Source of the DNA: an uncultured Planctomycetaceae bacterium
Lineage (GTDB): Bacteria > Planctomycetota > Planctomycetia > Gemmatales > Gemmataceae
Length of the DNA: 40,704 bases
Direction of reading: 5' to 3'
Assembly: GCA_903960945.1 (NCBI GenBank)
Contig: CAJCCR010000307.1
Location: forward strand, 1-40,704
In this document: piece after piece, positions 6,429-23,378 of the stretch
Position numbering within the stretch: the stretch's first letter is position 1
Layout of the letters: each line of letters begins with the position of its first letter
Made by a program: the position numbers and the translations under genes
The notes under the pieces: generated by a model
Database searches by the model: none
What the model saw: the letters and a program-made list of their open reading frames with translations, nothing else
Told to the model about the DNA's origin: nothing

Positions 6429-7454
6429 ATGGAGGGCTTTTTGGAAATCGTTGCACTGGTGGAATCTGAAGACCATGTCTGCACTCGCTATCGCTTAAGT
6501 GCCTACAAAGAGCATTTCGCTAAATCAGGCTACTCATTGCGGTATCTCACCTGGCCAAAAACCTTATTCGGCTTATTAAGCCTAGCATCAAAACTTCAAA
6601 ACAAAACCGTGATATTACAACGTAAGTTGCCTCCTACATGGCTTACATGGCTTATCAGGCGAAGTTGCAAGCATTTGATATTCGACTTCGATGATGCCAT
6701 TTTCTTACGCGACTCCTACTCAAAAAAGGGCATGGACGACCGCTCTAAACTTGCAAGATTTATAGCAATATCGAAAGCCACAGACGCCATGGTTGCAGGC
6801 AATCGATTCTTGGCAGACGCCTCTGCCGAACATACCAGCGCCTCAAAGATTTTTGTAATTCCAACAGTAATTGAAACTTCTAAATATCAACTTACTCCAT
6901 CTGCCAACTTAATCGATTCCCTCGAAATGGTCTGGATAGGATCAAAAAGCACGCTACAGTCGCTTGAAATCATTCGCCCCATTCTGGAAGAACTGGGCAA
7001 AACCTTTCCCAACCTATCTCTTAAAATCATTTGCGATTCTTTTCCAACCTTTGATCATCTCAAAGTTTCTCCTGTTCAATGGCAGGAAAGCAATGAGGTT
7101 GCAGAAATCCGAAGCGCAAATCTCGGAATCTGCTTTATGCCTGATGATCGATGGAGCCGAGGAAAGTGTGGCTTGAAACTTTTGCAATACATGGCTGCTG
7201 GCCTGCCCGTGATCGCCAATCCTGTTGGGGTTCATAGCGAAATAATAAGACATGGATACAACGGATTTCTTGCAAACACTTACGAAGATTGGTCGAACGC
7301 AATAGCGCTTATTTACAAAAATAAAGAGCAGCAAAAACTTATGGGAGGACGAGGCCGAGAAATCGTTGACTCGCTCTACAGTGTCCATTCAAATGCAGAA
7401 CACTGGATCGCCGTATTGAATAATCTTGATCAGCAAAAACTTCAGGCGGGGTAG
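6429..7454 (+). CDS. Glycosyltransferase family 4-like protein
   Basis: Seen: 341 residues with no signal peptide. The C-terminal half carries the GT-B/GT4 hallmark CGLKLLQYMAAGLPVIANPVG followed by GYNGFLA about 25 residues later, and an EMVWIG(S)K strand starting the second Rossmann domain. The N-terminal domain includes HLIFDFDDAIF, typical of this GT4-like subgroup. Known: GT4 enzymes transfer sugar from nucleotide-sugars to lipid or polysaccharide acceptors. Context: it is followed after 4 bases by a double WaaP/Kdo-kinase-like gene, which suggests a role in outer-membrane glycolipid or surface polysaccharide assembly (inference). Donor and acceptor cannot be read from the sequence. Confidence 0.85.
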   Translation: MEGFLEIVALVESEDHVCTRYRLSAYKEHFAKSGYSLRYLTWPKTLFGLLSLASKLQNKTVILQRKLPPTWLTWLIRRSCKHLIFDFDDAIFLRDSYSKKGMDDRSKLARFIAISKATDAMVAGNRFLADASAEHTSASKIFVIPTVIETSKYQLTPSANLIDSLEMVWIGSKSTLQSLEIIRPILEELGKTFPNLSLKIICDSFPTFDHLKVSPVQWQESNEVAEIRSANLGICFMPDDRWSRGKCGLKLLQYMAAGLPVIANPVGVHSEIIRHGYNGFLANTYEDWSNAIALIYKNKEQQKLMGGRGREIVDSLYSVHSNAEHWIAVLNNLDQQKLQAG

Positions 7455-7458
7455 GGTG

Positions 7459-9186
7459 ATGACGAAATCAACCGCTGACGCAATGGCTCAAGTGAAATGG
7501 ATTCTTGCCCCAGAAGTTGCAGATTCCAAAACCATAAGGGAAGCATTGTTTTGTGAAGGTGTACTTCGTTTCCCACAATGGCTTGATGCAAATTTAGTTA
7601 ATACCATCAAAAGTGGAGTGCACAGATCTGTTTACCAAATCTCACTTCCCGGGTTTGATATCCATTTAAAACACAATCGCATCTCAGGACCAAGAGCTTT
7701 TATCAGAGAATGCTTCCGCGCAACCAAGGCGAAGAATGAATTCCTAATTGCATTGAATTTATTATCTCTGGGGATTCCTACTATTGCGCCCCTAGCTTTT
7801 GGCACATCAGCAGGTTTTTTGCCTGATAGTTTCATCATCACGCATACACTTGAAAACGCCATTCCTTTAAACGATTACTGGGAATCATTGCATTCCCAAA
7901 GCTGGGAAGAGTCATGGGATCATAGGCACCAACTAACCAAAGCACTTGCGACTTTTCTTGCTGCAATGCACCGGAAAGGGATCGTTCATACTGATTTACA
8001 CCCTGGCAATCTGATGGTGGAAATCAAAGAACAAAAGCCATCAAGAATCATCATGCTGGATTTGCACCCTGTGAAAATTCATAGCGCAGCAGTGCCTTGG
8101 GAAATCAGGTTGGAAAATCTTGCCATGCTTGATAGATGGGCAGCTTTACATGCAAGCCTCGCCGATCGGATGCGCCTTTGGGACTATTACATCAAAGAAG
8201 TAAGCGAATTTGAAGGGGCTAACGCCTTTGCTTTTCATGATAAATACTGGCTAAAAAAACAGGTGTTCATCATGAAGGCGTTGGAATCAAATGCCAACTT
8301 GAAACTTTGGTCCAGTTTCGACCTGCGCTGCATGGGCAATAACCGCAGATTTAAAAAGTTCAAGCAGAACACAATTAAAGGCCATCATGTTTCAGACTTG
8401 GGCAAAGCTTGCTTAATCGATCTTGTCAATCTCCGAACAGAATCTGGAAATACCCAAAACTTAAAGATCCTCAAAAAATCAAAAAGCTCTGAAGTGATTG
8501 CCTTAACAATTAAAGATGGCGCAATCGAAAGAAAGATCATCTACAAAAAAATATTTGCAACCAAAATGATTGATCCCATTCTTTCCCTTTTCAGGCCAGA
8601 TGGCACTTCCAAATCTTGGACCATGGGCCATGCGCTTATCACCAGACAATTACCAACACCTAGGCCTCTTGCAATGTGGCACACGCATTCTGCTGGTTTA
8701 AAGGTAGACGGGGTGATAATCACGGAAGAAATACCAGATGCAACGGATCTGCCCAAGTATCTTTTAAAAATCGACCAACTTGATGAACCCAAAAAAACTG
8801 AGTCGCTACAAACACTTGTAAACAAAGTTGCACACTTAATAAGAAAAATGCATGATCTTTCGGTTTCGCATCGCGACTTAAAATCTCCCAACCTCATGGT
8901 TTCTGAGAATGGGGGCGATATAAAAATATGGCTGGTAGATCTAGTAGGGGTACGCACTCACACCTACCTTTCTGATGAAAAGAAAGCGCAGAACCTAGCC
9001 CGATTAAACTCGAGCTTTGTTAATTCCAAGCAAATCAGCAACACAGAGAAGTTGCGCTTTTTAAGGCAATACTTAAGATGGGGGACCGAAGGGCCTTTTG
9101 CATGGAAAACATGGTGGCGCAAAATAGGCAAACTCACAGGCTTAAAGATAGCTAAAAACCAGCGTTCAGGCAGACCACTTGCCTAA
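7459..9186 (+). CDS. Tandem WaaP/Kdo-kinase-like protein (two kinase domains in one chain)
   Basis: Seen: 575 residues with two protein-kinase-fold catalytic loops. Domain 1 has HTDLHPGN with His177, Asp179 and Asn184, then IIMLDLHPVKI as the metal-binding strand. Domain 2 has HRDLKSPN with His471 and Asp473, then IWLVDLVGVRTH. Both have the DL(H/V) form seen in lipopolysaccharide core kinases (WaaP, InaA, KdkA) instead of DFG. Known: such kinases phosphorylate heptose or Kdo of LPS core on the cytoplasmic face. Inference: with the preceding glycosyltransferase it may modify a glycolipid. The frame is open from 7426, but ATG 7459 sits behind a GGCGGGG/AGGG-rich ribosome site and follows the upstream stop by 4 bases. 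Both active sites look intact; the substrate is unknown. Confidence 0.8.
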   Translation: MTKSTADAMAQVKWILAPEVADSKTIREALFCEGVLRFPQWLDANLVNTIKSGVHRSVYQISLPGFDIHLKHNRISGPRAFIRECFRATKAKNEFLIALNLLSLGIPTIAPLAFGTSAGFLPDSFIITHTLENAIPLNDYWESLHSQSWEESWDHRHQLTKALATFLAAMHRKGIVHTDLHPGNLMVEIKEQKPSRIIMLDLHPVKIHSAAVPWEIRLENLAMLDRWAALHASLADRMRLWDYYIKEVSEFEGANAFAFHDKYWLKKQVFIMKALESNANLKLWSSFDLRCMGNNRRFKKFKQNTIKGHHVSDLGKACLIDLVNLRTESGNTQNLKILKKSKSSEVIALTIKDGAIERKIIYKKIFATKMIDPILSLFRPDGTSKSWTMGHALITRQLPTPRPLAMWHTHSAGLKVDGVIITEEIPDATDLPKYLLKIDQLDEPKKTESLQTLVNKVAHLIRKMHDLSVSHRDLKSPNLMVSENGGDIKIWLVDLVGVRTHTYLSDEKKAQNLARLNSSFVNSKQISNTEKLRFLRQYLRWGTEGPFAWKTWWRKIGKLTGLKIAKNQRSGRPLA

Positions 9187-10253: not shown

Positions 10254-10928
10254 ATGCCTCGCTTCCTTATCACCGCTGGTGCAACATCTGTTGCTATTGA
10301 TACCGCACGCAAAATCACAAACCTAGCCAAAGGCGTTACAGGGCACACTCTTGCGCTTGAAGCTGCAAAACGAGGCCATCAGGTTTGCCTCTTAACAAGC
10401 AACCCAAACCTGGCAAACAACCAGCAAAACATTGAAACAATTCTTTTTGATTCCTTCGATGATCTACTTTTTCTACTTGAAAAAGAAACTTGCAAAAACA
10501 TTTACGATACCATCATTATGACCGCAGCAGTAAGCGATTACAGTTGTGCGGGTATATTCCAGACGCCGGATTTCAACACCCCGATTGCAACATCGGGCAA
10601 TGAAAAATTATCAGGGACTCATCAGGAATTATGGCTAAAGCTAAAACCTCTGCCTAAACTGATCGACCAAATCAGAACCATCTGGAATTTCAAAGGCACC
10701 CTAGTTAAGTTTAAACTGGAATCCAATATTGATGAGCAAAAACTAATTCAAATTGCAGAGCAATCAAGGGCCCATTCCAACGCCAACCTGATGGTTGCAA
10801 ACCGTGTAGAAGATGCAGCTATCAAAGCGTGGATCGGGCCTATTAATTCAAAATACCAATGCGTTACTCGGGAAGATCTACCCACAAGCCTTATCGATGC
10901 AATCGAGAAAATTTGGGAAGCACAATAA
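10254..10928 (+). CDS. Phosphopantothenate-cysteine ligase-like protein (CoaB domain, stand-alone)
   Basis: Role by homology: joins 4'-phosphopantothenate with cysteine in coenzyme A synthesis. Seen: LITAGATSVAIDTARKITN at the N-terminus corresponds to the CoaB nucleotide-binding opening (ITAGGTxxxIDxVRxIxN), followed by GHTLALEAAKRGHQV, the MTAAVSDY motif near residue 87 and NANLMVANRV, equivalent to the DLIVANxV motif. At 224 residues it is a CoaB domain alone. The next gene, coaC, starts inside this stop codon (TAATG), so the two are translationally coupled. Oddities: the substrate loop is divergent (GATSVAID for GGTREPID) and there is no fused decarboxylase. I call it CoaB-like rather than assign the symbol. 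Confidence 0.8.
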   Translation: MPRFLITAGATSVAIDTARKITNLAKGVTGHTLALEAAKRGHQVCLLTSNPNLANNQQNIETILFDSFDDLLFLLEKETCKNIYDTIIMTAAVSDYSCAGIFQTPDFNTPIATSGNEKLSGTHQELWLKLKPLPKLIDQIRTIWNFKGTLVKFKLESNIDEQKLIQIAEQSRAHSNANLMVANRVEDAAIKAWIGPINSKYQCVTREDLPTSLIDAIEKIWEAQ

Positions 10929-11557
10929 TGGCAAAAATCCTTCTGGGAGTCACAGGCTCTGTTGCAGCAATCAAAATGGAAGAACTTGCAACCCGGTTGA
11001 CCAATGAAAAACACGAACTCAAAATCGTAATGACCAACCATTCAAAGTATTTTGTTTCACCTGAAAAGCTTGAAGCAATTTGCGGAAGAGATTCCGTTTT
11101 TACCGATGCCAGCGAATGGCCAAATCAACTCTATTCCCGCGAAGACAATGTATTGCATATCGAACTAAGAAAATGGGCAGGGCTATTCATCATTGCGCCT
11201 TTGGATGCCAACACTCTTGGAAAAATGGCACTGGGATTGGCGGATAATTGCCTGACTTCCATCTGGCGGGCCCGCGACATTGCAACACCCGTAATTTTGG
11301 CACCCGCAATGAACACCCTGATGTGGCAAAAACCTGCAACCTTAAGGCATTTGACACTCATTGCGGAAGAAAATGGCTTGCTGAACATTGCCCCTAGTAA
11401 TCCGGATCATGCCTGCGAAATCATTAATCTCTCTGCTAAAAAACTAAGGGTTCTGCAGCCCGAAGAAAAGCTTCTGGCGTGTGGCGACCTTGGGGTTGGC
11501 GCAATGTCTTCCATCGAAAAAATTGTCGAAGCATCAAAGCAATTACTTTCTTTATGA
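10928..11557 (+). CDS. coaC: Phosphopantothenoylcysteine decarboxylase (stand-alone, HAL3-like)
   Basis: Role: FMN-dependent decarboxylation of phosphopantothenoylcysteine to 4'-phosphopantetheine. Seen: GVTGSVAAIK flavin-binding start; catalytic His77 in LHIELRKWAG; IIAPLDANTLGKMALGLAD; substrate clamp PAMN at 126-129 within APAMNTLMW; and active-site Cys185 in LACGDLGVGAM. At 209 residues it is a complete single-domain enzyme. The frame is open further upstream, but the ATG overlapping the coaB stop by one base has GGGAAG upstream and starts exactly at the conserved MAKILLGVTG. The motifs resemble plant/animal PPCDC (HAL3) more than the E. coli Dfp N-terminal domain (see findings). Confidence 0.9.
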   Translation: MAKILLGVTGSVAAIKMEELATRLTNEKHELKIVMTNHSKYFVSPEKLEAICGRDSVFTDASEWPNQLYSREDNVLHIELRKWAGLFIIAPLDANTLGKMALGLADNCLTSIWRARDIATPVILAPAMNTLMWQKPATLRHLTLIAEENGLLNIAPSNPDHACEIINLSAKKLRVLQPEEKLLACGDLGVGAMSSIEKIVEASKQLLSL

Positions 11558-13581: not shown

Positions 13582-13601
13582 AGCCTATGATCAGGGCTTT
13601 A
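13579..13601. terminator. Short hairpin at convergent gene ends
   Basis: TAAAGCC (13579-13585) pairs with GGCTTTA (13595-13601) around a 9-base loop, overlapping both stop codons. The stem is only 7 bp and the T-tract is short, so it may be a weak bidirectional terminator or chance. Confidence 0.3.
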
Positions 13602-14745
13602 ATGGAACCAATCCCAGAGATTCTTTTACTTCAAGAATCATCTGGGAATCTTTGGTTTCAAGTTGAGCCAAAAACTTTTCAATCTGCGCATCCTTAGGCG
13701 CGGTCAGTGCATAGCGAAGAAATGCCCGCTTCATTACAGGAGCGGTGTACCCCTTGGTTCCATAAATATTTAGTATCTCTTGGGTAAAACCCCAGTACTT
13801 CATTTTCCGTAATTCTTCAATTGCAAGATCCGCAAGTTCCCCTTGCTTCAATGCAATATTCAATGCTTTGAAAATCTCAGCCTTGTCTGATTTATCTTGC
13901 ATTATTTCATTGGCAACTTTGATAGACCGAATACATGAAAGCCTAGTTTGCAATGGCGTATCATCAGCCTTTAAAAAGCCATCAAGCGCCTTCCAACCCT
14001 TGTCGGGATGCAACCGTATCAAGGCGACCATTGCCCCATCAAAAGTCGCCTGCGCTCTAGAATCCTGCAACTTAAGCATCTCAAGCAAAAAACTAATATC
14101 TGCATCGCGACCGCAACCGCCTAAAAGAAAAGCATACAGACCTAGTCGCTCTTCAGGCACCTTGGGGTCGAGAATCCAACTTTTTAAAAGAGCTGGATTC
14201 ATTTTTTTTGAAAACTCAACAAGTGTAGAATCAGAAGCTTTAGCGAATTCTAAAAAGGCATCAGAGGCTATTTCTCTGGAAGGGGATTGCAAAAAAGGAA
14301 GGTAAAAATCAAGTAGAGCAGGGCCCCTTAAACTTGTCGCCCCAAGTGCCCCTGCTGCATAATTAGACACTTCTTTTGATGGAATAGAAACTCCACGAAA
14401 TACATCTAGCTGCCCTTTGGAGTTGTCCGCAAACAGCAAAATTCCATTGTAAGCATTGGCATCAAAAGGCAAATATTGCTTGATGGAAATAGAAGGCTGT
14501 AGCTGAAAATCGGATGGCAATATGAAGCTTTTTTGAACTGCGATTTCAGTTTTCCCTGTCCCATCAAGTTCAAGGGTTGACTTTATGATGATGCCGAAAA
14601 GGACAATCTTGGAATTTGATTTTAACGCTTGCTCCCGAAGCGAAAGCGACTGCCCATAGCCGGCACAAATACTGCAGGCAATAGTTGCCCCCGCAGAAAT
14701 TGCGGTAAGCAATACAACAACAAAAAAGAGCAGAGCAGTTCGCAA
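13591..14745 (-). CDS. Secreted CxxC protein, paralogue of the gene upstream (unknown function)
   Basis: Seen: a hydrophobic signal segment (residues about 3-21), then CSICAGYGQSL at the mature N-terminus, a beta-rich region of about 120 residues, and a helical C-terminal half that looks like HEAT-type repeats (GLYAFLLGGCG, DADISFLLEMLK, ELADLAIEELRKMKYWG). It matches the 14790-15953 product along its length: CxxC-(x)3-GQ(S/T)L, VLFG, DxxRGV, LGxCG, DLAIE(E/D)LRK and AFLRYAL/AVLRYAL. Start: I use TTG 14745, with GGAAGGA eight bases upstream, instead of a TTG at 14784 with no ribosome site. The domain is not one I recognise. It is probably co-transcribed with its paralogue (44-base gap). Confidence 0.75.
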   Translation of the reverse strand: MRTALLFFVVVLLTAISAGATIACSICAGYGQSLSLREQALKSNSKIVLFGIIIKSTLELDGTGKTEIAVQKSFILPSDFQLQPSISIKQYLPFDANAYNGILLFADNSKGQLDVFRGVSIPSKEVSNYAAGALGATSLRGPALLDFYLPFLQSPSREIASDAFLEFAKASDSTLVEFSKKMNPALLKSWILDPKVPEERLGLYAFLLGGCGRDADISFLLEMLKLQDSRAQATFDGAMVALIRLHPDKGWKALDGFLKADDTPLQTRLSCIRSIKVANEIMQDKSDKAEIFKALNIALKQGELADLAIEELRKMKYWGFTQEILNIYGTKGYTAPVMKRAFLRYALTAPKDAQIEKFLAQLETKDSQMILEVKESLGLVPLKP

Positions 14746-14789
14746 TAAAATCGTCCTTCCTTGGACTAAGTAATTAACAAGCAAAAAAA

Positions 14790-15953
14790 TTATTTCGCAG
14801 GCGGAGCTGGTTGCTCTAATTTCAATAATTCCTCAGCATCCATAACCCCTTGGGCATCCGCAAGCCTTTGCTTTTTAATAAAATCATCGGCAGCGGTGCT
14901 TCCTTTGCAAGACAATGCGTAGCGCAGCACGGCTCTACGAACAATTGGAATTTTCTTATAGGCATCTTTTTCTTGCAAGCCCAGAACCTTGTCTGCCTGA
15001 TCCCAGACTTTCCATTTCCGCAGGTCTTCAATTGCCAGGTCGGAGATGTCTTCTTGATCCAGCAACAAAACAATAGCTTCAATAAGTTTTTGCTTGGGAA
15101 TTAGATCTGGAGCAAACTCCAGAAAAAATCTCACTGCCCGCAAGCCAGCATAACGAAACAAAAACTCTTTCTTGGGATTCTTCATTACAGCAAGAAGATA
15201 CTCCCAACCCTCTTTGGGGTTGAGCATTGCATAGGCAGCAAACACACCATCGATGCCGCTTGCAGATTGTTTTTCGGGATCTTCCAGCAACTGTTTAAGA
15301 ATTTGGGCATCTTCGGGCTTGCCACAATGCCCAAGAATCGAAGCATACAAACCCATTTTAAAGGATGGGGTAGCGGAATTTTTAAGCCAAGAAATCACTT
15401 TGTCTCGGGAAAAGAGTTTTGCTGCCAGTTCAAATTCTTTGTAGCCCGCATTCCCAAACTCTTTATAAGCATCGTTTGAAATTTCAGTATCTGTGTTTTC
15501 CAGATAGTTAAAATAAAATCCAAGCTTTTTTGGAAGGGTACTATCTTTAAGAGCTAAGGCCCCTTGAAGGTAAGCAACAATCTCACTTTCTGGGGGAACT
15601 GCAACGCCTCGATAGGGGTCGAGTTTATCCTTATAAACTTCACAAAACAGGAGAAACTTATATTTCCCGTCTTTGTCTGGCGGAACATAACGGGGAAGGG
15701 TCAGCGTTTTTTTACCACCACGAATGGCATGATCTTTGATAACTTTTTCGACTTCAAAATCGGTACTTCCATCGGCACCATCAGCATTGCCAATCTTGGC
15801 GTTTTTCAAAGTACCAAAAAGAACCATACTAGCTTGATTGACTTCCCCTACAAGGGTTTGGCCCTGCATGGTGCAAAATGGACAGGATAAAAGCCTGCCC
15901 GTTACTGCGATAAAACTAAAAAGCAAAACGAACACCAAGTTCTTAAGGTTCAT
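14790..15953 (-). CDS. Secreted CPFC-motif protein with helical repeats (unknown function)
   Basis: Seen: a signal segment (MNLKNLVFVLLFSFIAV), then CPFCTMQGQTL at the mature N-terminus, a VLFGTLKNA strand, a DPYRGVAVP motif, and a helical C-terminal half. The CPFC could coordinate metal or be redox-active; no thioredoxin fold is evident. Length 387 residues. Start: ATG 15953 has CGGAG five to nine bases upstream, while the longer frame from 15989 has no such site. It follows the YcgQ-like gene by 53 bases on the same strand and precedes its paralogue, so all may share a transcript. I do not recognise a named family. Confidence 0.78.
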   Translation of the reverse strand: MNLKNLVFVLLFSFIAVTGRLLSCPFCTMQGQTLVGEVNQASMVLFGTLKNAKIGNADGADGSTDFEVEKVIKDHAIRGGKKTLTLPRYVPPDKDGKYKFLLFCEVYKDKLDPYRGVAVPPESEIVAYLQGALALKDSTLPKKLGFYFNYLENTDTEISNDAYKEFGNAGYKEFELAAKLFSRDKVISWLKNSATPSFKMGLYASILGHCGKPEDAQILKQLLEDPEKQSASGIDGVFAAYAMLNPKEGWEYLLAVMKNPKKEFLFRYAGLRAVRFFLEFAPDLIPKQKLIEAIVLLLDQEDISDLAIEDLRKWKVWDQADKVLGLQEKDAYKKIPIVRRAVLRYALSCKGSTAADDFIKKQRLADAQGVMDAEELLKLEQPAPPAK

Positions 15954-16006
15954 AAAAACTCCGAAAGTGCAAAAATTTCTACTATGCAACCAAATCTGAT
16001 CGCAAA

Positions 16007-17071
16007 CTAATTAGCGTAGGGGTTGGAATCTTGCGGTACAACTTTGACCAGATCATCGTTAAGTTTATGCTCTGTATCTGGGAATAAAACCAAGGCAGTC
16101 ATGTATTGTTCATTGTCTTTTCGTTTGAGAAAATGCACTCGCCCTGTCACTTGAACCCATTTGTTTGCATACTTTTTCCAAGCAAGCTTTTCAGGGGAGT
16201 TTGGGTCAACCATCATCACCGCATTAAGGGGCACCGCATCGGCAGCACAGCAATTAATTTTAAAACGGATGAGTGAAAAACGCTTTTCTTCTTCTCCCAC
16301 ATACTTACCTATCAATCTTACCGTTTTGCCTTCATAGTGGTTTCTACTTTCTTGCGTCATGGAGGCCATTTCCAATTGCAAAAAACCAACATTAAAGTCA
16401 ATTCCTTTTTCTGCTACAGAACCGACCTCACCAAATTGCGAAAGGTCTACGCCCTTAACATTGCTGAATACTTCATTGGGAACATTGAGAAAAAATAAAA
16501 CGATTGGAAGCAATAATACAATGAATCGAACTGGTGCAGATCCATGGCTATGATCGTGACCACAATCCTCATGGCCTGAAGATTCAACCTTATGTTCGTG
16601 GTTACAATCGGGGCCATGCACATGGTTATGATCATGCCCATGTTCGTGTTCATGTTCATGTTCCTGACCGTGGTTGCAATCGGGGCCATGCACATGGTTG
16701 TGATCATGGTTGTGTTCATGTTCATGCGTGAGTTCATGTTCGTGTTCATGACCGTGGCTACAATCGGGGCCATGCACATGCTTAGTATTTGATTTTAATT
16801 TTCCCGATTCGAGCCAAAGAGCGATTATTCGGACCGAAACAAATCCCAAAAGAATAATGCTGCCTGTCAAAACCCAGAAATGAAACTTGGGATGCAGGAT
16901 GATCGACAATTTCCTGCCATAGGAAATTATTTGCCCATCACCACCATAGATGGGAAAGGGCCACCAAAGCATGATGCAAACATAGGCGATTGAAAGTGAA
17001 ATACCAATGCCGATCAATTGCTCGATGTAATATTCGGTCGCATTATCGTGGTGGTGATGTTCATTAGCCAC
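16007..17071 (-). CDS. YcgQ-like DUF1980/TIGR03943 membrane protein with His-rich metal-binding insert
   Basis: Seen: HHHH at residues 5-8; two membrane segments (about 17-37 and 64-87); a His-rich insert (98-177, 28 histidines) with HVHGPDC repeated at 98, 126 and 150; a third membrane segment (181-197); and an extracytoplasmic C-terminal domain with the conserved INCCAADA motif (Cys274-Cys275), which identifies the DUF1980 family. Known: these proteins pair with UPF0718 permeases, as B. subtilis YcgQ with YcgR, and that partner ends 4 bases upstream. Inference: the insert binds zinc, nickel or another transition metal and feeds or senses the permease. The insert is encoded by imperfect DNA repeats and is probably variable between strains. 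Ribosome site weak, consistent with coupling. Confidence 0.85.
16601..16780. repeat. Imperfect tandem repeats encoding the His-rich insert
   Basis: The core ACAATCGGGGCCATGCACAT, or GCAATCGGGG in the middle copy, recurs with copies starting near 16601, 16673 and 16757 (spacings 72 and 84 bases). Between the copies lie runs of CATG/TTCATG triplets that encode His-Glu and His-Asp pairs on the minus strand. Copy-number change by slippage would alter the number of metal-binding histidines without a frameshift when in multiples of three. Confidence 0.85.
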
Positions 17072-17075
17072 AGGT

Positions 17076-18131
17076 TCACCTTGAGGTTGAAGTTATAGAA
17101 TCTGTTTTGGGAAAGAAGAACTTTGGTCCAAAGTTTTCCCAAAGGCCATGCAAAAGCATGGTGTAAACAAAAACCTGAATTACCACTGATATAATTATAG
17201 TCCAAATTAGTCTGGGCTTAAACACCCTTGTGTACATCATGTAAAGTTTAAGATCGAGCATGGGGCCAAGTACAAGGAAACCAGCTTTAGCTGCAGGCCT
17301 TAAAGTGACAAAGCTTGCGGCAACAAAGGCATCGGCTTCGCTACATAAGCAAAGGACAACTGAAAGGGCCATCATTAAAAGCACGGCAAGAATAATATGG
17401 GAACGGGAAAGTTCAGAAATCGCATCGTGAGTTAGCCAAATGCGGGTAAAAGCAGCAAGAAGCGCCCCAATGGTAAGGAAAACAGTGATATCGATGAAGT
17501 CGTGGAGTGCGGTTTCCGAAATTCTGGAAGCACGGGCAAACCAGTTCATGCTGCCTTTGTTATCAACCTCTTCACCCTCAACGACATCAAGCGACAATTT
17601 ACTTTTAGCGGGGGGTTTTGCCAAAGGAAGAAGAAGGTCATCACCATATTTTTGATGAAGACGATCAACAATCAGACTGGTTCCAACCGCAACAAGATAA
17701 GCCATACCTGTACGGGCTAAGACCATAGCAATCCCACCCATTTGAAAAGCAAGAGTTCCGTTTTCGGTGGCATTCTCCATGCCATCAAAAGCAACATAAG
17801 TACTAAGTAAAACTAGGGGATTAATGATTGGGCCCGCAAGAAGATAAGCAATACAACAACTTAAAGGCAAGCCTTTGCGTAACAGCCTGCGCATTACCGG
17901 AATAATGCCACACTCGCACATGGGAAAAATCAACCCCAGAAGACCACCAATTAAAATCGCAAAGAATCTGTTTCGAGGAAGAAGCCTTGCGATCAATTTT
18001 TGAGGCAGCAACTCTTCAAGAAGTCCTGCAAGCAAAGATCCAATAACAATGAAGGGCAAAGCTTCATAAAAGATACTGGTAAAAATCAGAATGAAGTCTT
18101 TGATTTTATCGAGCGCTTGAGAACTATCCAC
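17076..18131 (-). CDS. UPF0718/DUF318 permease (YcgR/ArsP family)
   Basis: Seen: 351 residues with about eight membrane segments, interrupted by a hydrophilic cytoplasmic loop near residues 165-210. The family signature [20 protein letters not shown] lies near residues 70-90, with [16 protein letters not shown] after it, and a second half-motif [12 protein letters not shown] near residue 265. Known: this family includes ArsP (export of organoarsenicals through the conserved cysteines) and YcgR-type permeases paired with DUF1980 proteins. Inference: with the His-rich partner starting 4 bases downstream, a transition-metal role is more likely here than arsenic. No arsR or ars genes are nearby. 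The direction of transport cannot be judged. Confidence 0.88.
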
Positions 18132-18253: not shown

Positions 18254-19219
18254 TTAAGAGGCAGACTTTAATTTCCCGATGATCATCGAGCAAAAAAACA
18301 GCCCAACGCCCAGCATTACGATCGTACCTGAAACCCCAAACTTAATGCCTGAACGAACTTGCAACTCCCAACTGGCACCCAACCCTGCAAGGCACACAAA
18401 AACACTCAATAGAACCGTAATCCAGAAAACTTCACGCAAATTTCTTCCAAGGTTGAAAGCTGTTGCTGCGGGAACAATCAATAGGGCATTGATCAAAAGC
18501 ACACCCACATACCTTAAGCAAAGATTCACAATCAACGCTAACAAAATCACAAACAGGTAATAGAGAAGATTGATGGGGTAACGCCTTGACAATGCTAGGC
18601 TGCTATTGAAACTACTAAAGACCATACGGTTATAAAAAAAGAACAAGAAAACCCATGTAAAAACAGCCAACCCAGCCATGTATAAAATCTCGGATGCACT
18701 TACAAACAGCGGGTCGCCGAATAGAAAATCTTCCAAACTAAAAACGCTACGATCATTGATAATATTTTTAAGCATGGCAGCGAAGCCCAGAGAAAAAGCA
18801 AAAAAAACACCAATCACGGTGTCGCTAGCCAACCCGGTTTGGCCCCGGACATAGGCGATACCAGCGCCTACCGCGACACCAAAAAAAACCATAATAGGAG
18901 TGACCCATTCCCAGAATTCTTCCTTAGGTCGGGCACCAAGAATAAACAGTTCAAAAATAACATAGCCCAAACTTACACCAGCAAACGCACAATGAGCCAA
19001 GGCGTCGCTAAAAAAAGCCATCCTACTACCAACGACCATGGAACCGACTGCACCACAAGTTAAACTAACAAGCGCAAGCGCAAGCATCGCCCTAAGATTG
19101 AACACTTGATTAAAGAAAGACCCTTCAGAAAAATTAGCTGCGAAGGAATTAAGAATCTGGTCAAGCCAATGCACACCTGCACTACCAAAGAATGGACTAA
19201 GAAGCAATTCAACAGGCAT
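18254..19219 (-). CDS. ABC-3 family zinc/manganese ABC transporter permease (ZnuB/MntB-like)
   Basis: Seen: 321 residues with about eight membrane segments. Family motifs are AFFSDALAHCAFAGVSLGY near residues 68-86, ASDTVIGVFFAFSLGFA, and LRYVGVLLINALLIVPAATAFNLGRNL near residues 235-260. Known: ABC-3 permeases form the channel of zinc, manganese or iron importers with a ZnuA-type binding protein and a ZnuC ATPase. Neither is visible in this window; the neighbour upstream is an aminotransferase ending 30 bases before this start. Together with the YcgR/YcgQ pair downstream, this suggests a metal-homeostasis neighbourhood (inference). The start has little ribosome site, so translation may be coupled to the upstream gene. 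Confidence 0.88.
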   Translation of the reverse strand: MPVELLLSPFFGSAGVHWLDQILNSFAANFSEGSFFNQVFNLRAMLALALVSLTCGAVGSMVVGSRMAFFSDALAHCAFAGVSLGYVIFELFILGARPKEEFWEWVTPIMVFFGVAVGAGIAYVRGQTGLASDTVIGVFFAFSLGFAAMLKNIINDRSVFSLEDFLFGDPLFVSASEILYMAGLAVFTWVFLFFFYNRMVFSSFNSSLALSRRYPINLLYYLFVILLALIVNLCLRYVGVLLINALLIVPAATAFNLGRNLREVFWITVLLSVFVCLAGLGASWELQVRSGIKFGVSGTIVMLGVGLFFCSMIIGKLKSAS

Positions 19220-19249
19220 GAGAAAATTCCATGGAGGTCGTGAACTAAA

Positions 19250-20674
19250 TTAATGCCCGCCCGCAATGGCGGCGCCGTGATCAACATTATTTTTAACCAA
19301 CGGCGCAAGAAGCTTATGCAACAATTTCATCGAGGAAGCAGCCTCTGCCAGCGAAAGAGTAAGCGGGGGAGAAATCCTGATGACTTTCCGAGCTAACGGC
19401 CCAAGAATATGAATTCCATCGCCGTTGGTATCACCGCGGTAACAAGCTTCAACCATGGCGCAAGCCCATGCATGGGAATTTTTCCCGCCCCAATCCGCCA
19501 TCTCAACACCCCACACCATACCACCTTTTTCGCCACGAACATTCGCAACAAAAGGCAGATCAATTTTCAGAGCAATCAAGCCTTCTTCAATAATGGCAGA
19601 AACTTTGCGAGAATGCTCGAGGACTTTACCGTTTTCAAATTCCTCAAGGGTTGCAATTACCGCAGCACAACAAAGAGGATTGGCACTCCAAGTATCCGAT
19701 GCTTCACCATAATCCAAACAATCAAACAAATCTTTTCGACCTACCACAGCAGCAACGGGAACACCATTGCCCAAGCCTTTACCCAGAACAACAATATCGG
19801 GTTCAATGCCATAGCTTTCGTAGGCAAAGTTTTGACTAGTGCGACCAAAATTCGCCTGCACTTCATCAAGAATAAAGACAATATCCTTCTCTCTGCAAAA
19901 ACGAACGAGCATCTGAAGATATTCTTTTGGGGGATGATAAGAACCGCCACCACCCAAATAAGGCTCGGTGATTAACACGCCCAACTTGCGTCCATATTGA
20001 TGCCAAAGGGAATCTAATTCTTTTTGGTAATGCGCAAAATCAAAGGGATTATCCCGCATTGAAAGATCATTACATTCACACATCGGAAATGAAATAAATT
20101 TAACCCTGGGGTCGCGTTCCTTATCATTTTCGGTACCGGTGATGGCGTTGGACAAACCTTTTTTACCATGAAACCCATAGCGGGTTGCAATGATCATATC
20201 GCGATTTTTATCCTTTGCCATCGCTGCCCACAAAGCCTTTTGAATTCCTTCTGAACCCGAAGCTGCCCAAAGAACCTGCTGCATTCTGAAACCAACAGGG
20301 TGAACCCGCATCAAGGCAAGCAATTTTTCACTAGCTTGAATTTCAATTGGAGTTGCGGCATTGTATGCGGTCATGGTGACAGCAGGAAAATAATCATCAG
20401 AGTCCTTCGCGGCACCAAGATTGCTCCAGCCCATCAATTCAAAAAACCTTTTGGTCCATCGAACAGGGTTATGCCCAAGATTTGCCACGAGTACACCGGA
20501 AGTGAAGTCGTAAAGTTTTCTTCCTTCAGGAGTCCAATGAAATGAACCAGCACTTTTCGCTAAAATCGCCTGACTTGGGGTAAAGGTACGCAAAGATTTT
20601 GGTTCAATATCCACCAAGTGATCGCGAATTTCATTCGAGCTGTTTTCACCCGGATGATGAATTGGTTTAATCAT
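19250..20674 (-). CDS. Class III pyridoxal-phosphate aminotransferase
   Basis: Seen: 474 residues with fold-type I class III motifs: SGVLVANLGHNP, AASGSEGIQKALWAA (cofactor phosphate-binding), ATRYGFHGKKGLS, LITEPYLGGGGSY, FILDEVQANFGRT (pyridine-ring Asp) and VLGKGLGNGVPVAAVV with the Schiff-base lysine at about Lys299. Known: the class includes 4-aminobutyrate, ornithine, acetylornithine and beta-alanine aminotransferases; the substrate is not evident here. Start: the frame opens at a TTG two codons earlier, but ATG 20674 has AAAGGA eight bases upstream. A promoter with an overlapping palindrome lies at 20708-20736. The downstream gene is the ZnuB-type permease, 30 bases away. Confidence 0.88.
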   Translation of the reverse strand: MIKPIHHPGENSSNEIRDHLVDIEPKSLRTFTPSQAILAKSAGSFHWTPEGRKLYDFTSGVLVANLGHNPVRWTKRFFELMGWSNLGAAKDSDDYFPAVTMTAYNAATPIEIQASEKLLALMRVHPVGFRMQQVLWAASGSEGIQKALWAAMAKDKNRDMIIATRYGFHGKKGLSNAITGTENDKERDPRVKFISFPMCECNDLSMRDNPFDFAHYQKELDSLWHQYGRKLGVLITEPYLGGGGSYHPPKEYLQMLVRFCREKDIVFILDEVQANFGRTSQNFAYESYGIEPDIVVLGKGLGNGVPVAAVVGRKDLFDCLDYGEASDTWSANPLCCAAVIATLEEFENGKVLEHSRKVSAIIEEGLIALKIDLPFVANVRGEKGGMVWGVEMADWGGKNSHAWACAMVEACYRGDTNGDGIHILGPLARKVIRISPPLTLSLAEAASSMKLLHKLLAPLVKNNVDHGAAIAGGH

Positions 20675-20707
20675 GAACAATTTCCTTTAGAAGCACTTAA
20701 TATAGTT

Positions 20708-20736
20708 ATTACAGAATAGCTGTAATTCCTTGGCAA
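20708..20736 (-). promoter_or_regulatory. Predicted promoter of the aminotransferase with overlapping palindrome
   Basis: On the minus strand TTGCCA (20736-20731, 5 of 6) is followed by 17 bases and TGTAAT (20713-20708, 5 of 6). An inverted repeat ATTACAG-5-CTGTAAT (20708-20726) covers the -10 box and half of the spacer, where a bound repressor would block RNA polymerase. Predicted start near 20701, giving a leader of about 27 bases. Confidence 0.5.
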
Positions 20737-20766
20737 GTATAGATGTAAACAATACACCATTAAGGC

Positions 20767-22080
20767 TTAAACTTTCGAAGCATGCAGAATCAAATGCTCG
20801 GATTTACCAGGCCGATATAACACCAATCCACCATCAGGGCCATTTACCAAAACTTGGGCTCCCGGATTTCCCGAAACATGCTCAGACAAAATCGCCTCCA
20901 TCGCTTGAACAATCGCAACCGTATTTCTATCAGCACTAAGATCATTGTAAGAAAGTTCTTTCATTGATTGCAATCTATCATCTCGATTAAGAGCAGAGTC
21001 TGCAAACTCAACAAAAGCCACCTCTTCAAAAAACCGATGAATGACTTCTAACCCATAACCACGCTGACTGCGTTTACCCCAAGGTTCTAAAAAAGAACCA
21101 TTGTAATGATAATTGGGAGTGTTCTTAAGTTCATTGGGAGTAAGATCTTCAATCGCCATTTCGACTCCGCGTTTTCGTTGATGAGCATTCCAAATAGCAT
21201 TATCAAAACGAAATTGAACCTCTTGCTCCACATACCCAGGAAAATTATCAGGCATCACCCAACTAGTATGAATATCAAAAGTAGCTTCACGATTATCTGG
21301 GTGCCTATAGGTGATTTGAAGCTGGCAAGAATCCCAAGTTGGCCCATCTGCATTTCCGACCAAACCCCTCTGGCCTGTTGCATTGATACGGATCAACTCC
21401 CAACCGGGTTGAACGCTTGTAGGCCCAAATGTAAAATCAATTAACTTGATATAGTGGACCGCAACGTAGGTACCCGGATTCCTCCCGACTATCCATTCTG
21501 CAAATTGTTTTCCACTGATTGATTTGGGTTCGAGCAAAGAGCAGTAGCCATTATTAACATGCCGAAAAACAGAATCCGCATAGTGAGTGCGCAATTTCTT
21601 ATGATCGGGGTCGGCAAGCTTGTGATAAACAACTTTGGCCAGAACTTTCTTTCGATCAGCAATCTCTTGAAGTTGCTCCAATTCTTTAAGCGTTAGAACT
21701 GATGGCTTTTCGATTAAGACATGCTTGCCCGCAAGTAGAGCCATTTTAGCAGCTTCGAAATGCCGGTCATCAGGCGTTGCAACACAGACCACATCAACAT
21801 TGGATGCGAGCAGTTTTTGGATAGCATCATCACCATGGCAATTTTCAAAAGGCGGAATAAGGTGATTCAACTGCTGGAGGTAATTTTGCCCCCTGGTTCC
21901 GGTTCGGGTTGCAGCCGCTGTCCAACAAATATCGACAGGCCCGGTAGCAGGGGAGTAAAGAGGCGAGTTCGCCAACTCCAAAAAAACAGGCTTGTAGGTT
22001 TCATCAAAAATCATCCCGAGGCCGATCATGCCAACGCGTAAAACTTTGTGATCTTCGTTAGGATTTTTGTTTGGATTCAT
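20767..22080 (-). CDS. Gfo/Idh/MocA family oxidoreductase
   Basis: Seen: 437 residues; an N-terminal Rossmann fold with RVGMIGLGMI near residues 15-24, DVVCVATPDDRHFEAAKMALLAGKHVLIEKPSVLTLKEL near residues 95-133 with the family's EKP motif, then an alpha/beta substrate domain. The first binding loop is GLGMIF, and a cofactor of NAD(H) or NADP(H) is expected. Known: members oxidise or epimerise sugars and inositols; substrate unreadable. The ATG at 22080 has AGGA about 12 bases upstream. It has no leader peptide, so it is cytoplasmic, unlike many planctomycete relatives with Tat signals. A promoter and a perfect palindrome lie upstream. Confidence 0.88.
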   Translation of the reverse strand: MNPNKNPNEDHKVLRVGMIGLGMIFDETYKPVFLELANSPLYSPATGPVDICWTAAATRTGTRGQNYLQQLNHLIPPFENCHGDDAIQKLLASNVDVVCVATPDDRHFEAAKMALLAGKHVLIEKPSVLTLKELEQLQEIADRKKVLAKVVYHKLADPDHKKLRTHYADSVFRHVNNGYCSLLEPKSISGKQFAEWIVGRNPGTYVAVHYIKLIDFTFGPTSVQPGWELIRINATGQRGLVGNADGPTWDSCQLQITYRHPDNREATFDIHTSWVMPDNFPGYVEQEVQFRFDNAIWNAHQRKRGVEMAIEDLTPNELKNTPNYHYNGSFLEPWGKRSQRGYGLEVIHRFFEEVAFVEFADSALNRDDRLQSMKELSYNDLSADRNTVAIVQAMEAILSEHVSGNPGAQVLVNGPDGGLVLYRPGKSEHLILHASKV

Positions 22081-22130
22081 GTCGGGCTGATCCTAAGGAA
22101 TGCAGAAAAAAACAGTAGAGATCAGTCCAC

Positions 22131-22159
22131 AATATACCCACAAGAGTAGCCTAGGCCAA
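22131..22159 (-). promoter_or_regulatory. Predicted promoter of the Gfo/Idh/MocA gene
   Basis: On the minus strand TTGGCC (22159-22154, 4 of 6), a 17-base spacer, then TATATT (22136-22131, 5 of 6). Predicted start near 22124, giving a leader of about 43 bases. The perfect palindrome at 22160-22175 abuts the -35 box on its upstream side. Confidence 0.45.
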
Positions 22160-22175
22160 CAAGAATATATTCTTG
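22160..22175. promoter_or_regulatory. Perfect 16-bp palindrome abutting a -35 box
   Basis: CAAGAATATATTCTTG equals its own reverse complement. It lies immediately upstream of the predicted -35 of the Gfo/Idh/MocA promoter, a classic position for an activator or repressor dimer. No regulator gene is adjacent. Confidence 0.4.
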
Positions 22176-22237
22176 GTGATATCGCATAAAAAGACTGAAA
22201 ACAAAGGGCGGGAGGGCCAAAAAGGCTTTATAGCTTA

Positions 22238-22333
22238 AATGAAACATAACAGCCGTTATCGGACGTTGCTATTATAAGAACCCGGCAAATCCCGCCTTCC
22301 TGCAGCGTCCGATAACGGATCTTATGTTTCATT
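22238..22333. repeat. 96-bp imperfect inverted repeat (MITE-like or structured element)
   Basis: Two 32-base arms (22238-22269 and 22302-22333) pair with four non-Watson-Crick positions (three consecutive, one G-U type). The outer part is AATGAAACATAA and the inner part CCGTTATCGGACG. The 32-base centre is unpaired internally but contains TCCCGCC (22290-22296), which can alternatively pair with GGCGGGA at 22207-22213. It lies between the accA stop and the Gfo/Idh/MocA promoter. It is not followed by a T-tract on either strand, so it is not a normal terminator. I see no convincing target-site duplication and no coding capacity. Confidence 0.75.
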
Positions 22334-22382
22334 CGTGGTATATCTTCAAATTGATTTATAAATCAGATCGGAACGAAAGATA

Positions 22383-23378
22383 TCACGCAGAGCCAACAGA
22401 TTGCTCTTGTGAATTACCTTCCAACAAGACACCCATGTTGCGGAATTTTTGGTACCGCTTTTCAAGCAACTCATCAACGGGAAGTTGAAGTAACTCTCCA
22501 AGATATCGAAGCAAATATGACTTCAATGTGTTCGACATTTCTTTGGGGTCTCGATGCGCACCACCCAATGGTTCAGGAATAACTGCATCCACTATCCCCA
22601 ACTTTGACAACTCTTTCGAGGTCAACTTTAAAGCATCAGCCGCGATTGGTTTGGTAATCTCGGTGGCAGCTTTCCAAAGAATACCTGCACACCCTTCCGG
22701 ACTGATCACTGAGTAATACGAAAACTCAAGCATACAAACCTTGTCGCCAACCCCAATCCCCAACGCACCGCCCGAACCACCTTCCCCAATGACCACACAT
22801 ATTACCGGAATCTTGAGGCATGACATTTCAAGAATGTTGGCAGCGATCAGCGAAGACTGACCCCGCTCTTCCGCACCTATACCAGGGAAAGCCCCGGGAG
22901 TATCAATAAGGCAAATGATCGGCAGACCAAACTTTTCTGCCAACTTCATATTCTTCAAAGCTTTTCTATAACCTTCGGGATGAGCACAACCATACATGCA
23001 TTCTCTTCGCTCTTGCAAGGTATGGCCTTTTTGATGACCAACCAACAAAACGCGATGCTCTCCAATTCTTGCGAATCCGGTTCGAAGCGCACGATCATCA
23101 CCAAAGGCACGGTCGCCATGCAATTCAACAAAGTCATCAAAAATCATTTCTACATAATCCATCATCTGAGGTCTGTCAGGATGGCGGGATACTAAAACCG
23201 TCTCCCAGGAAGTCAGATTCCCAAATTTTACTTTTTTAAGGCTGGCAACTTCCTTGCGAATACGACGGATCTCTTCACTGTTTGCAATATCTGAACCTTC
23301 CTTCACTTCCAATGACGAAAGAAGATCCTCCAGCGCGTATATTTCTTTTTCAAATGGTAATCTAGCTTGCGAACTCAT
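22383..23378 (-). CDS. accA: Acetyl-CoA carboxylase carboxyltransferase subunit alpha
   Basis: Role: with AccD it transfers the carboxyl group from carboxybiotin to acetyl-CoA, the committed step of fatty-acid synthesis. Seen: 331 residues, close to the usual 315-325. An N-terminal helical region with the FEKEIYALED opening is followed by RPQMMDYVEMIFDDFVELHGDRAFGDDRA, GHQKGHTLQERRECMYGCAHPEGYRKALK, LIDTPGAFPGIGAEERGQ (carboxybiotin/CoA site), GEGGSGGALGIGVGDKV and EFSYYSVISPEGCAGILWK. The ribosome site GAGGGG precedes the ATG by three to eight bases. It is divergent from the GT87 gene. No accD is in the window, so the subunit genes are unlinked here. Confidence 0.96.
   Translation of the reverse strand: MSSQARLPFEKEIYALEDLLSSLEVKEGSDIANSEEIRRIRKEVASLKKVKFGNLTSWETVLVSRHPDRPQMMDYVEMIFDDFVELHGDRAFGDDRALRTGFARIGEHRVLLVGHQKGHTLQERRECMYGCAHPEGYRKALKNMKLAEKFGLPIICLIDTPGAFPGIGAEERGQSSLIAANILEMSCLKIPVICVVIGEGGSGGALGIGVGDKVCMLEFSYYSVISPEGCAGILWKAATEITKPIAADALKLTSKELSKLGIVDAVIPEPLGGAHRDPKEMSNTLKSYLLRYLGELLQLPVDELLEKRYQKFRNMGVLLEGNSQEQSVGSA

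Follow-up and report, generated by a model that had tools for sequence, protein, structure and literature searches.

A tandem pair of predicted NTR-HEAT envelope proteins as candidate partners of metal transport in Planctomycetia

What might two adjacent proteins with a cysteine pair at their predicted mature N-termini do downstream of a putative metal permease? The question is raised by a DNA stretch of 40,704 nucleotides from an uncultured bacterium of the Gemmataceae; this whole stretch is referred to here as the window. Its minus strand encodes, in order of transcription, a class-III aminotransferase, an ABC-3 permease, YcgR, YcgQ and two proteins that we call A and B, as judged from open reading frames (ORFs) and Pfam. 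Over their whole length A and B matched no described Pfam or NCBIfam family, and no sequence relative was found in the PDB below E 0.47. A preliminary description of this DNA had suggested that the pair serves an extracytoplasmic metal-binding or thiol function.

The operon and its N-terminal cysteine pair

Gene A (14790..15953, minus strand) encodes a predicted signal peptide, a CPFC motif, an NTR-like domain and a HEAT-like domain, as read from the ORF and an AlphaFold2 model. Its paralogue B (13591..14745, minus) carries CSIC in place of CPFC, followed by NTR-like and HEAT-like parts defined by alignment to A. The open frames are somewhat longer, 14790-15989(-) for A and 13591-14784(-) for B. 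If A starts at its ATG at 15953, 53 bases separate it from the stop of YcgQ (16007). For B, a TTG at 14745 leaves a gap of 44 bases to A; this start codon is uncertain because there is no ATG nearby. The two proteins share 28% identity over 385 residues (BLASTP, E 1e-50), and a search of the window's own genome found no third copy. ORFs, BLASTP and Pfam thus confirm what the preliminary description had reported, tandem paralogues on the same strand as YcgR/YcgQ and downstream of them with gaps of 53 and 44 bases. The motifs that it had claimed, an N-terminal CxxC-x3-GQ stretch and DLAIE(D/E)LRK, are also present: A has CPFCTMQGQTL and DLAIEDLRK, B has CSICAGYGQSL and DLAIEELRK.

Both genes directly upstream of A are of recognizable type, the UPF0718/ArsP_1 and DUF1980 (TIGR03943) pair known as YcgR/YcgQ. 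The YcgQ-like membrane protein (16007..17071, minus) has a His-rich linker and a DUF1980_C OB-type domain with an invariant CC; it matches PF21537 above the cut-off (E 3.5e-8) and TIGR03943 at E 1.4e-16, under that model's cut-off. The YcgR-like permease (17076..18131, minus) matches PF03773 at E 1.3e-48. Farther upstream lie a lone ABC-3 permease of the ZnuB type (18254..19219, minus; PF00950, E 5.4e-47), a member of the conserved block that keeps its place in relatives, and the class-III aminotransferase (19250..20680, minus; PF00202), a neighbour conserved by synteny. The order accA, GFO/IDH oxidoreductase, aminotransferase and ABC-3 permease (18254-23378 in the window) recurs upstream of YcgR-YcgQ-A-B in many Gemmatales.

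Is the cysteine pair a lasting feature of the family? In A it lies at 15873..15884 (minus), at the predicted mature N-terminus; in B, located by sequence and alignment, it lies at 14665..14676 (minus). A hydrophobic leader, found by computation, precedes it in both. Among 153 collected homologous ORFs, a set that leaves out loci L072 and L074-L077 but not a small number of fragments and of frames that overlap (L089 and L101 among them), both cysteines are kept in 145. The first is present in those 145 and the second in 150, which is every one of the 150 ORFs that cover the region. The eight exceptions are three fragments and five paralogues that keep the second cysteine alone (two at L101, and one each at L103, L068 and L069). 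CPFC is the commonest form, with 101 cases. In a 52-member alignment just five columns are invariant, two of them the CxxC cysteines. This alignment leaves out L072 and L074-L077 (near-identical, same genus), the long L066 frame and three motif-less ORFs (the L061 fragment, L068 and L069); because of those three exclusions, 145 of 153 is the fairer count. Conservation of the pair exceeds chance. Loss of the CxxC among homologues, which the preliminary description had named as grounds for abandoning its proposal, is not what we find.

Little else of this kind is conserved. The family has no conserved histidine column, and the next-best cysteines are kept in 115 and 82 of the 153 ORFs. Two cysteines alone cannot complete a tetrahedral zinc site and there is no other conserved ligand, so any such site would seem to be completed by a partner, by a dimer or by the N-terminal amine. 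In 122 of 145 sequences the residue ahead of the first cysteine is Ala, which fits cleavage just before Cys, with a cysteine as the putative mature N-terminus. We set aside two other readings of the motif. As a lipoprotein signal, the first cysteine fits the strict lipobox in only 11 of 145 sequences and the second is left unexplained; the window's A has LLS before Cys, where lipidation is possible under a looser rule. As a thioredoxin-type oxidoreductase, the protein appears to have the wrong fold, with the CxxC at the start of the chain, ahead of the predicted OB-type domain.

A predicted TIMP-like fold joined to HEAT-like repeats

In the AlphaFold2 model of A, at pLDDT 85.4 and pTM 0.80, residues 43-119 form a beta domain of five strands and helices occupy 125-376, in keeping with the beta-rich half and HEAT-like helical half of the preliminary description. 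Foldseek with the whole model returned HEAT/alphaRep and TIMP/NTR structures, together with adaptor matches. The helical part (14826..15581, minus), which includes DLAIEDLRK, is modelled as tandem antiparallel helix pairs of the kind that define HEAT repeats, and Pfam HEAT_2 is matched, with E no higher than 0.1, by 12 of the 52 members.

The beta domain (15594..15884, minus) was also modelled alone, at pLDDT 74.1. Its Foldseek ranks 1-24 are all TIMP/NTR-family chains, among them agrin NtA and the complement C3 C-terminal domain; TIMP-1 and NTR chains reach probability 1.00, as does the best match, 3ma2_B, with E 3.3e-3, and no E-value is at or below 0.001. VIA-align gave almost wholly TIMP, NTR and C345C structures, led by 7tlh_D with rmsd 3.4 over 89 aligned residues and Z 7.7, a value that, taken alone, could still reflect a common arrangement. 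At a limit of E 0.1, the Pfam TIMP and NTR models matched none of the 52 members. From these models we predict an NTR/N-TIMP-like OB fold for the beta half. The CxxC end itself is poorly modelled, with blocks at pLDDT 38-64 in full-length A and residues 1-11 under 50 in the domain alone.

The animal TIMP/NTR proteins share with A and B the predicted fold of the N-terminal domain and cysteines at the predicted mature N-terminus. In contrast to them, A and B are bacterial, are fused to a HEAT domain, have CxxC instead of CxC, lack further conserved cysteines in the domain and have no sequence match in Pfam or the PDB. A literature search found nothing relevant on NTR/TIMP-like proteins of bacteria or planctomycetes. 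In TIMPs the mature N-terminal cysteine is described as binding zinc with both its amine and its carbonyl group (PMC3779175). Because of this precedent a metal role for the N-terminal CxxC is chemically plausible, as an analogy and not as a demonstration.

Two gene neighbourhoods

How far does the association with metal genes extend? The family is found in 34 of 41 close genomes and, with the 52-row profile, in 208 of 248 sampled Planctomycetia genomes, including all 72 of the Gemmatales (families f1, the Gemmataceae, and f2). In a sample of the phylum 37 of 292 genomes match, 34 of them Planctomycetia; the three matches outside the class, in family f68, are partial and cover mainly the helical half. 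This unnamed family therefore spans most Planctomycetia and occurs almost nowhere else in the phylum sample.

We read the gene context at 100 loci, the window included; the counts rest on HMMs that were themselves derived from clusters at 40 of these loci and so are not an independent test. In 28 of 52 Gemmatales loci, representing 20 of 37 genera, A/B genes are no more than 6 kb away from YcgR and/or YcgQ and share their strand; the usual order is ABC-3, YcgR, YcgQ, A, B. The remaining 24 loci (17 genera) stand beside neither of the contexts described here. One further Gemmatales genus (g19) places YcgQ and A on one contig, outside the 20 counted; for genome G024 the loci read are those on contigs C604 and C198, and its YcgQ and A found together are on C187. 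At the Gemmatales loci L047, L049, L051, L055, L056, L090, L091 and L097, A/B are followed, on their own strand, by a gene for an M17 aminopeptidase.

Outside the Gemmatales the neighbours are different. The preliminary description had held that co-occurrence with UPF0718/DUF1980 genes would support a shared pathway. This holds for the 20 Gemmatales genera; elsewhere the companions are an ABC ATPase, a permease of the MacB/LolE type and DUF3299 proteins. In families f4, f6, f9, f11-f16, f18 and f19, 38 of 43 loci (35 of 40 genera) have DUF3299 and/or the MacB-type permease at a distance of 6 kb or less, none lies beside YcgR/YcgQ, and five loci in five genera show neither context. All five loci of f5, from both its genera, also show neither. 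In all these groups taken together, some of the loci that lack both contexts are on short contigs. No genus among the 100 loci shows both contexts. A YcgQ match (E 5.1e-21 or better) is present in all 72 Gemmatales and both f5 genomes; in 15 other genomes the profile matches weakly, over its middle part, with a best E of 3.9e-10. A midpoint-rooted tree of 149 sequences separates Gemmatales plus f5 (80) from the rest (69) with support 1.0. The two contexts thus correspond to the two halves of the tree, and one change of partner suffices. The MacB-DUF3299 unit does not require A/B, since f3 and f8 carry the ATPase, permease and DUF3299 without them (five loci, L145-L149).

PF11736 (DUF3299) is over its cut-off in 110 of 248 genomes, a figure that includes a separate Gemmatales protein. 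This protein has about 420-490 residues and ends in a DUF3299-like OB domain (L138-L144, L150 and L151, the L151 frame being longer). By eye, its N-terminal part is TPR-like and a W(F/Y)CE motif occurs in L138, L140 and L141. We considered these matches as a transporter context and rejected them: in the nine loci read they come from this other, longer protein, which is encoded apart from the ATPase/MacB pair, and for that reason they are not counted.

Are the two units related? YcgQ and the DUF3299 proteins alike combine a hydrophobic N-terminal part with an OB-type domain in which a CC motif is invariant; in 16 YcgQ sequences C281, C282 and D285 are invariant. With hhalign, YcgQ matches the second DUF3299-like gene at probability 91.5 (E 8.4e-7), the first at 61.7 (E 7.7e-5) and the combined set at 81.6 (E 1.1e-5), in an alignment that spans the CC motif. 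These comparisons support a remote homology of YcgQ and DUF3299. We found no sequence link between A/B and either of them.

The DUF3299 proteins lead to described zinc operons. In the PDB, the profile of the planctomycete DUF3299 proteins finds 4hsp_A (E 1.7e-6), which is PA4066 from the Zur-regulated operon PA4063-PA4066 (PMC8561739), and zrgE of a zinc-induced Vibrio operon is a DUF3299 gene (PMC9817125). Both PA4063-PA4066 and zrgABCDE are reported to respond to zinc (PMC8561739, PMC9817125, PMC9820375). ZrgABCDE of Vibrio and PA4063-PA4066 of Pseudomonas aeruginosa share with our second context a MacB-type permease, an ATPase, an adjoining DUF3299 and extra envelope-protein genes. The planctomycete loci differ in having two DUF3299 genes, in the added A/B genes and in lacking the zinc-binding protein ZrgA: PF10986 (DUF2796) is over its cut-off in 0 of 248 genomes, with 10 weak matches below it. 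We conclude that the MacB/DUF3299 neighbourhood is a second zinc-associated context.

A role in envelope metal handling

The reading of A and B that these data support best is that they are exported NTR-HEAT proteins of the envelope, extracytoplasmic partners of a transport unit for a metal, probably zinc, with the CxxC as a candidate ligand; we give it an even chance of being right. In the transport unit a permease would be paired with an OB-domain protein that is anchored in the membrane and has a CC motif; this protein would be YcgQ in Gemmatales and DUF3299 elsewhere. Signal peptidase would cut the leader so that the first CxxC cysteine becomes residue one or two of the mature chain. The N-terminal CxxC on its TIMP-like OB domain would then bind Zn(II) or a similar ion and hand it to, or take it from, the CC-containing OB protein, and the HEAT half would serve for docking, either to the transporter or to the other member of the A/B pair. 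In the second context A/B may take the place of ZrgA. Several observations weigh against this reading: the genera that show neither context, the units of f3 and f8 that have no A/B, the few conserved ligands, the poor model at the CxxC, the ZnuA and ABC-3 genes elsewhere in the window's own genome, the failure of the scans to find a Zur box and the cobalt-pyochelin interpretation of PA4063-PA4066 (PMC11481552). The extracytoplasmic, metal-related role put forward in the preliminary description gains partial support, as the best-supported reading of a family with no described counterpart in Pfam or NCBIfam. By the two grounds that the description had named for its refutation the outcome is divided: the CxxC is conserved, but the adjacency to YcgR/YcgQ is confined to Gemmatales.

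Might the CxxC be structural instead? The motif could form a disulfide and so anchor the N-terminal end of the NTR domain, A and B being scaffold or assembly proteins of an envelope transporter that bind no metal themselves. N-terminal cysteines of NTR/TIMP domains are described as disulfide-bonded (PMC3779175), HEAT repeats are typical protein-binding scaffolds, and A/B have no other conserved metal ligands. Against this, the association with metal genes is seen in each of two distinct contexts, and because only the CxxC cysteines are near-invariant, any disulfide would lie within the pair and not, as in TIMPs, reach to the core. We regard this alternative as rather doubtful, and two further ones as distinctly improbable. 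By the first of these, A and B would regulate an envelope metallopeptidase as TIMPs do, the mature N-terminal cysteine chelating its active-site zinc. The predicted fold, the cysteine at or beside the predicted mature N-terminus and the M17 gene after B in many Gemmatales loci are consistent with this, but enzymes of the M17 type usually reside in the cytoplasm, transporter genes are much more constant as neighbours, and a cluster-based look at some loci outside Gemmatales found no metallopeptidase as a common neighbour. By the second, the MacB-type unit exports a metallophore, a lipoprotein or another molecule with the help of A/B and is tied to metal through regulation only. Its ATPase and permease are indeed nearest to the LolD and LolCE/ADOP/MacB models, below every cut-off, and PA4064-PA4065 is described as a MacB exporter (PMC11481552). 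The ABC-3/YcgR/YcgQ context of Gemmatales is left unexplained, however, and V. cholerae zrg mutants are reported to be impaired under zinc limitation (PMC9820375).

The metal-partner reading touches on systems whose own roles are debated. Which way Zrg-type operons transport is a matter of dispute: the zrg phenotype stands against the interpretation of PA4063-PA4066 as a cobalt-pyochelin exporter and not a zinc importer (PMC9820375, PMC11481552). According to these two papers ZrgE/DUF3299 has no known function. We found no published function for YcgQ/DUF1980, nothing useful on UPF0718, DUF1980 or TIGR03943 in connection with zinc, and no description of an A/B-like addition to the YcgR/YcgQ pair. 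A partner family found across the class now joins the two contexts, with one type of CC-OB protein, one NTR-HEAT partner and two permeases, and makes the link testable. Bacterial metal transport would also gain a component with a predicted TIMP-like fold and, at its N-terminus, a conserved pair of cysteines. More broadly, and as a speculation that we think is more likely wrong than right, a TIMP-like NTR domain that chelates zinc with its mature N-terminal CxxC may act as a carrier in the envelope for two unrelated permeases, YcgR and the MacB-type, by docking on the remotely related CC-OB proteins YcgQ and DUF3299, so that YcgRQ and Zrg would share the logic of a metal relay. The recurrence of A, B and their relatives beside zinc-type transport genes suggests that they belong to a part of bacterial metal handling outside the cytoplasm that has not been described so far. 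The exported zinc protein ZepA, from cyanobacteria and other bacteria, resembles A/B in having zinc-related gene surroundings and planctomycete members (PMC10957091). We set aside its identity with A/B, since ZepA, compared by its description alone, has PEP-CTERM and a different architecture.

Regulatory sites and other zinc genes were also surveyed. Simple scans with three Zur consensus sequences (up to two mismatches), and a count of exact palindromes, revealed no convincing Zur-box-like or shared palindrome upstream of the operon genes or in 20 ZnuA loci. The window's own genome has ZnuA and ABC-3 genes together on contigs C10 and C436, apart from the lone ABC-3 permease of the window, so zinc import need not depend on the A/B operon. 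Elsewhere in the window, two overlapping ORFs at 10254-11557 resemble by eye the halves of CoaBC, and a 586-residue protein at 7426-9186 has kinase-like stretches that match the Kdo/WaaP lipopolysaccharide kinase family.
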